64,000 nucleotides of DNA from an uncultured Bacteroidales bacterium (lineage in GTDB: Bacteria; Bacteroidota; Bacteroidia; Bacteroidales; Bacteroidaceae): NCBI GenBank assembly GCA_947303715.1, contig CAMYYY010000007.1, positions 1 through 64,000 on the forward strand, written 5' to 3'. Both the position numbers and the translations under genes were made by a program. Shown piece by piece: positions 47,670 through 48,712 of this stretch (the first letter of the stretch is position 1; the number at the start of each line of letters is the position of its first letter). The notes beneath the pieces were generated by a model, which made no database searches, had not been told where the DNA came from, and saw only the letters and a list, made by a program, of their open reading frames with translations.

Positions 47670-47693
47670 TTCCCGATTTTTCTCGAAACACCC

Positions 47694-48074
47694 CCAACAC
47701 TTACCTTTTCCCTCGTAAGGTGTTGACAATAAAGAGGTAAACATAGGTAAGTGTTTGTCGAACACTTACCTAACACCTACCTAAGACCTTCCTGTTTGAA
47801 AGGCACACTCGTTTTCATTACTCAACGCTCTCAAGTTCTTGACTGTTTGATCGTTCTACATATAATTGTCTTGTAATTGCTCAAGTTTACTGCGCCAGCC
47901 ATTCATGGAAAATACGTGGTAATTCGTGTTTTCTTTCTTTATAATTCTCTGATTCCCACCATTTTCAGACACCAAGGTAGGTGTTAGGTAGGTGTTAGGT
48001 AAGTGTTTTGCAAACACTTACCTAACTTAACGTATTGTATCATAGTGAGTTTTGGGCAAAAAGGTAAGTGTTGG
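47694..48074. repeat. Nested palindromic structure built on GGTAAGTGTT
   Basis: Three levels of inverted repeat share the core GGTAAGTGTT. Outer pair: CCAACACTTACCTTTT (47694-47709) and its exact complement (48059-48074). Middle pair: 24 bp, 47761-47784 and 47984-48007 (TTAGGTAGGTGTTAGGTAAG...). Local hairpins: 12-bp stem with 5-base loop (47744-47772) and 15-bp stem with 3-base loop (47994-48026). No gene within. Confidence 0.92.
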
Positions 48075-48209
48075 CATTTTTTTTCGCAAACAATCTCCTC
48101 TGGAAAGAATCGCAAGAACCGGACAAATGACAGACCGAATCAAAGAGCTGTCCCCATTATACGTCGAGTTGAGAACCGTCCATTCCTATAAGAAAGTGGC
48201 GTCTGCTGC

Positions 48210-48395
48210 GCGGTTTGTTTTTCAACCCGTAACTTCTTCGTCCAAATGATGTGCCTGCAACGTAGTGCGAACTGTCGATAACGCACTACGTCTATGTCGT
48301 AGCGCACTACGTCCGCGTCAGAACGCACTACGTCTGTCCGCGCACGTAGTGCGTCGTGCGTCACCGGTTGCGTGACGGGTTGAAAAGGAAACCGC
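48210..48395. repeat. 21-bp-phased CGCACTACG array inside an inverted repeat
   Basis: CGTAGTGCG at 48261, CGCACTACG at 48282, 48303 and 48324, and CGTAGTGCG at 48345: five copies at exactly 21-bp steps, the outer two inverted. The array is flanked by 21-bp inverted arms (48210-48230 and 48375-48395, two mismatches; core TTTTCAACCCGT). No supported gene; a minus-strand ORF through it reads as DVVR heptads. Confidence 0.93.
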
Positions 48396-48510
48396 CCAGT
48401 AACGGGCACTTCTATAGTTAATGGAGGGGCGGAGATTGTCGGCCTCGCCTTGGCTTTTTCAACACGGTTTGTCAACAGGGATGGCGATAATTTGTATGCC
48501 TTTCCTGGCG

Positions 48511-48639
48511 TTTTCCATGAGGTAAATCGTGGAAAATATTGCAATAGGTTGATTTATAGTCGTTATAAAAAGTGTTCCACGTGCACGTTTTCCATAGGTA
48601 AAATGACGTTGTTTTGAAATAATGCCGTATCTTTGCAGC
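48511..48639 (+). repeat. Promoter-bearing repeat, copy A
   Basis: Begins with TTTTCCATGAGGTAAA and, 77 bp later, has TTTTCCATAGGTAAAA. The final 53 bp (48587-48639), ending TATCTTTGCAGC, match copy B at 52712-52764 with one mismatch. The middle portion differs. Confidence 0.9.
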
Positions 48640-48645
48640 TGGAAT

Positions 48646-48712
48646 AAAACTGCTCCAAATTGCCAAGTAAAACTGCTCCAAATTGCCAAGTAAAACTGCT
48701 CCAAATTGCCAA
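48646..48712 (+). repeat. 23-bp tandem repeat, about 2.9 copies
   Basis: AAAACTGCTCCAAATTGCCA... units start at 48646, 48669 and 48692. The array lies between two TAnnTTTG boxes (48628-48635 and 48752-48759) upstream of the DUF4143 ATPase gene. Confidence 0.92.

Follow-up and report, generated by a model that had tools for sequence, protein, structure and literature searches.

Phased 21-bp palindromic arrays form a dispersed intergenic repeat family in rumen Bacteroidaceae

In the window (the whole 64,000-nucleotide stretch analysed, positions 1 to 64,000 of contig CAMYYY010000007.1 from an uncultured Bacteroidales bacterium), the interval between the genes for a CtpA-type protease and a DUF4143/AAA_14 ATPase (Pfam) carries a row of short repeated boxes inside an inverted repeat. 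A first-pass annotation made from the sequence alone had described five 9-bp boxes at 21-bp steps with the outer two inverted, enclosed by 21-bp arms at 48210-48230 and 48375-48395. All five exact boxes were re-found at these coordinates, and the arms are inverted with exactly two mismatches, being nested in a longer inverted pair of 40 bp. The window contains four 21-bp-spaced box pairs, whereas 100 dinucleotide shuffles gave 0.00 on average. The features are listed below; the 73-bp element was scored with an nhmmer profile made from eight solo copies.

48261 to 48269, minus strand: Box 1, CGTAGTGCG on the plus strand; core of the dyad at 48258-48272
48282 to 48290, plus strand: Box 2, CGCACTACG; core of the dyad at 48279-48293
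48303 to 48311, plus strand: Box 3, CGCACTACG; core of the dyad at 48300-48314
48324 to 48332, plus strand: Box 4, CGCACTACG; core of the dyad at 48321-48335
48345 to 48353, minus strand: Box 5, CGTAGTGCG on the plus strand; core of the dyad at 48342-48356
48165 to 48232 (nominally 48161-48233), minus strand: left copy of a dispersed 73-bp inverted-repeat element (nhmmer E 7e-16); includes the left arm
48372 to 48419, plus strand: right copy of the 73-bp element, in the opposite orientation to the left copy (nhmmer E 1.5e-10), with its first 48 positions recognisable; includes the right arm
48372 to 48395: exact GTGACGGGTYRAAAAGNWAACCGC, within the right copy of the 73-bp element
48140 to 48544, minus strand: 134-codon open reading frame with DVVR heptads, judged not to be a gene (no Pfam family; the array family fails coding tests)

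Other repeats lie close by. The interval between ctpA and the array (47690-48080) holds clusters of 11-bp repeats, AGGTAAGTGTT / AACACTTACCT, direct and inverted, with a period of about one helical turn, and clusters resembling them occur downstream of ctpA in a close relative (genome G016, locus L271). At L180, L172 and their orthologues, the 21-bp array is directly preceded by a stretch of GGTAAGTGCAC/AGGTGTCC-like words with a period of 11 bp. On the other side of the window array, a short way upstream of the DUF4143/AAA_14 gene, a 23-bp sequence, TAAAACTGCTCCAAATTGCCAAG, is directly repeated three times without a mismatch (48645-48712); it has no counterpart elsewhere in 61 genomes searched at one mismatch. 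Although ctpA is 99% identical in G016, the DNA downstream differs and the window array has no orthologue; at L271, the corresponding locus, a RelB/RelE-like toxin-antitoxin pair (recognised by eye) is accompanied by a different phased array, so that the site downstream of ctpA is variable among close relatives. Since the DNA there is unrelated in these relatives, they yielded no clean empty-site comparison for the window locus.

The five boxes belong to a large intergenic repeat family in a group of rumen Bacteroidaceae. Searching the source genome with the array region recovered many dispersed partial copies, of arms and boxes separately, and a search for pairs of CGYASTRCG boxes that permitted any gap of 1-31 bp returned 32 pairs, all exactly 21 bp apart from start to start, against 0 in the reversed control. 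Across 61 genomes, 9-37 such pairs were found in each of four other congeneric species, 0 or 1 in the remaining members of the genus, and essentially none in relatives at the level of family or order. With phased copies plentiful in relatives, one outcome that the first-pass annotation had named as refuting it, a unique sequence lacking such copies, does not apply. Among distinct neighbouring box pairs no more than 80 bp apart in several species, 65 of 72 are spaced at 21 bp, two at 22 and two at 42. Judged by matching coordinates, the public assemblies of the four array-bearing congeners are probably Tb.RUG.90, UBA1189, RGIG6839 (from sheep rumen) and RUI054, which carry the label Bacteroidaceae or Bacteroidales.

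The family is wider than one word. When loci are laid out in 21-bp rows, CGCACTACG emerges as one of several recurrent 9-bp words flanked by YAR/YTR, others being AATCAAACG, AATCAGCTT, ACCAAGGGG and CCCAAGCAT, with further words and reverse complements sharing a common array and a common 21-bp phase. A pattern free of words, in which only the YAR/YTR flanks and the 21-bp period were fixed, matched a 15-bp dyad in runs of three units 105 times in the source genome and 3 times in its reversed control, and in runs of four units 52-90 times in each of five related species of one genus and 0-2 times in controls; matches in other genera resembling coiled-coil genes were left out of these counts. The consensus of 119 units from 29 arrays, those of the source genome being sampled by region, is the symmetric dyad YARMRYNNNRYKYTR, whose ends are partly imposed because YAR/YTR was built into the search pattern; in the window array these outer positions are partly missing. 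Each unit thus consists of a 15-bp dyad and a 6-bp spacer, together 21 bp.

Similar arrays built from different words are present in other genera of the Bacteroidaceae. Dispersed intergenic elements of exactly four 21-bp palindromic units are seen with the word AACGWCGTT in genome G109 (L228-L233) and with CAGCASTGCTG in G198 and G159 (L234-L237); these words bear no relation to the words found in the window genus, and the flanks are partly alike between copies. Beyond this lineage, a scan of public contigs for three phased boxes gave mostly noise: among the matches listed, most of those outside Bacteroidales were 7-bp satellites or near-identical tandem units, and of the three in viral contigs, two were again near-identical tandem units and the third had diverged spacers.

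Direct repeats of 21 bp have the classic look of replication iterons, and the first-pass annotation had named iterons or an integration site among its suggestions. These readings, a replication origin or a recombinase attachment site, are the least credible of all that we considered: dozens of copies are dispersed over chromosomal intergenic space, between convergent, tandem and divergent genes alike, a plasmid collection searched with the array gave no match, and the neighbours in the window are the protease and ATPase genes, with no association with a rep gene, a plasmid or an origin.

Comparison of ten orthologous arrays, a set that does not include the window array, reveals a marked constraint on the cores. 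Changed positions amount to 2 of 371 in the core, 16 of 424 in the outer dyad, 15 of 318 in the spacer and 164 of 2066 in the non-coding flank, i.e., a change rate of 0.5% in the core versus 7.9% in the non-coding flank (P 4e-10), so that the core changes 15-fold less than the flank and 9-fold less than the spacer (P 4e-4 for the latter). A larger, partly redundant set gave 7 of 640 changed positions in the core and 66 of 1034 in the rest of the array. Insertions and deletions within orthologous arrays (n=4) measure 21, 42, 21 and 21 bp, with one of 42 bp at an array edge, while those in the flanks are mostly of 1-2 bp. Read from these alignments, the arrays combine a minisatellite-like turnover of units with constraint on core and phase.

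These data bear directly on the main competing explanation, according to which the arrays are selfish or neutral intergenic repeats, akin to minisatellites or to MITE/REP-like sequences, whose 21-bp phase records a history of tandem duplication and whose spread is due to transposition or recombination of the 73-bp element. Such an origin would account for orthologues that differ in unit number, for spacers that are similar within some arrays (e.g., L181), for the placing of arrays in every gene orientation and for their lineage-specific distribution, as well as for the composite loci considered next. Neither neutrality nor conversion of whole units, however, would leave the core so much less changed than spacer and flank, and in the window array the spacers have diverged despite exact cores and phase. 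We regard this explanation as a serious possibility, though a less probable one than protein binding.

The arms that enclose the window array lie within two oppositely oriented copies of a distinct dispersed element of 73 bp, which ends in terminal inverted repeats (GTGACGGGT...ACCCGTCAC) and is also dispersed as solo copies. The symmetrical enclosure noticed in the first pass is real and recurrent, an inverted pair of 73-bp elements enclosing an array at ten loci (the window, L062, L065, L080, L099, L127, L133, L140, L157 and L164), and more inverted pairs are present in G016 and G017. The composite of array and 73-bp pair may be a non-autonomous mobile unit, and the inverted pair could have helped to spread this composite form; the earlier suggestion of a non-autonomous element is thus plausible where 73-bp units and composites are concerned, but does not extend to the family, since most source-genome arrays lack the 73-bp element, which also weighs against the neutral explanation. 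Some composites carry a nested insert of ~75-80 bp (GTAAGACTTCC...GTTCGTCGG), seen at L179 (~2115-2195) and, in opposite orientation, at L140 (~2815-2905), and missing from L127, the orthologue of L179.

A coding origin, in which the repeats would be a heptad-coding relic or a C-terminal tail with DVVR repeats, had been offered as an alternative in the first pass and is now very improbable. It draws on the equivalence of 21 bp to seven codons, on a minus strand open over 134 codons in the window, and on the presence of some open frame in 35 of 36 arrays compared with 30.2 under a null in which units are flipped; this null is confounded, as it also destroys the coherence of tandem copies, and was replaced by tests on both strands and on codon positions. 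In these, seven arrays are closed on both strands, with no depletion, and a frame is usually open because the dyad consensus on both strands yields one. The third positions of that usually open frame (frame 2) vary least (15 of 73 changes), the cores hardly change at any codon position, and no strand is kept open. The minus-strand frame, without a Pfam match, does not represent the end of a known protein family.

An RNA origin, with the dyads forming small hairpins in a transcript, has in its favour that every unit is an imperfect palindrome and that pairing would be possible between units, which are often present in both orientations. It is nevertheless unlikely, if less remote than a coding one: observed and expected pairing are close for four arm pairs (0.57/0.51, 0.67/0.66, 0.52/0.48 and 0.40/0.37) and clearly above chance only at positions 6/10, TG-to-CA changes in the 73-bp element are unmatched on the opposite arm, and arrays and composites have no Rfam match above threshold. 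Across the 119 units of 29 arrays, the dyad halves vary independently except at one position pair. With so little covariation between half-sites and no protection of any reading frame, the constraint on the core is, on this sequence evidence, one on DNA and not on protein or RNA.

The two-turn phase, the dyad symmetry, the independence of the arms and the conservation of the core agree with consecutive dimer sites recognised by an oligomer. We therefore favour, at a probability of about 0.5, the reading of each array as a series of helically phased, palindrome-like sites for a putative oligomeric DNA-binding protein; of the suggestions made in the first pass, a protein-binding array phased at two turns is the one that best agrees with the phase, the dyads and the conserved cores, even though its iteron and integration variants fail. 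As dyad and spacer together make 21 bp, neighbouring dimers would be separated by two turns and occupy one side of the helix, where they could wrap the DNA or stiffen it, with possible effects on genes or the nucleoid. Array length changes by gain and loss of whole 21-bp units. Because arrays are found around genes in all orientations, promoter control is not a general role, and a nucleoid-architectural one is more likely. A broader proposal, which we consider speculative, is that Bacteroidaceae possess genome-wide, nucleosome-like positioned sites, phased dyad arrays with a limited set of lineage-specific words, each strictly preserved, read by its own putative oligomeric DNA-wrapping protein and serving the nucleoid and not single promoters.

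Dyad arrays of such strict phase and core conservation, present at dozens of loci, would offer a testbed for the use of regularly spaced binding sites in bacterial chromosomes, as well as a handle on a putative architectural or regulatory protein of abundant gut and rumen bacteria. Small open reading frames annotated across such arrays are probably not genes.

Among known systems, the operators of the Lrp/AsnC family offer a parallel in geometry and outer bases. Lrp-family dimers recognise imperfect inverted repeats of 13-17 bp, clustered at two or three helical turns and often bound by octamers (PMC2995911; PMC10201364). The arrays resemble them in their 15-bp imperfect dyads (119 units), in having several sites two helical turns apart (21 bp in 65 of 72 pairs), and in YAG...CTR ends, clustering and four or more sites; the dyad is compatible with the Lrp consensus yAGhAwATTwTdCTr (PMC5554404) at positions 1-4 and 12-15, with a centre that is not AT-fixed, this consensus being that of E. 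coli and possibly not that of the Lrps concerned here. By analogy, the elements in other genera, with exactly four units each, would offer one unit to each of an octamer's four dimers. The arrays differ from such operators in numbering dozens, in occupying all kinds of intergenic space and in falling into several fixed word classes, and the identity of the words is under closer constraint than would be expected of a degenerate operator. Every congener, with or without arrays, has one or two Lrp/AsnC genes, and copy number was dropped as a discriminator. An array at the regulator's own promoter, a common but not universal trait of Lrp/AsnC proteins, was not seen either, no phased chain being present in the ~3-kb regions around the lrp genes examined. 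We consider an Lrp/AsnC protein a doubtful candidate.

Among repeat families, the arrays share with REP/BIME sequences and their RAYT transposases clustered intergenic palindromes with inversions and a lineage-specific distribution. Inter-REP segments, however, are variable in length (PMC2817692), in contrast to the strict 21-bp phase of the arrays, whose arms also lack compensatory changes apart from one position pair. The Y1 transposase domain PF01797 was found in none of G000, G008, G016 and G017 and once in G011 (five array-bearing genomes, 84-93% complete); with RAYT missing from four of five such genomes and no arm compensation, we do not assign the arrays to this class. CRISPR, with identical repeats of ~23-50 bp, unique spacers of similar size and cas genes, was rejected, as the arrays have conserved words of 9 bp, gaps of 12 bp and mixed orientation. 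The 73-bp element resembles bacterial MITEs in its terminal inverted repeats and dispersed copies, but shows no clear, consistent target-site duplication in the copies inspected by eye, and no cognate transposon was found in a search that was not systematic; arrays also occur without this element.

The family of phased palindromic arrays is apparently undescribed, no arrays of such anatomy having been found in the literature searched, which covered few subscription papers. Its nearest relative in kind, compared by description and not by sequence, is PINSR of Prevotella, a single incomplete repeat of 188 bp without terminal inverted repeats, for which 21-bp phased dyads are not reported. With PINSR the arrays have in common that they are lineage-specific, intergenic, non-coding, high-copy repeats of a Bacteroidales clade, and that the small CDSs overlapping them are judged spurious.
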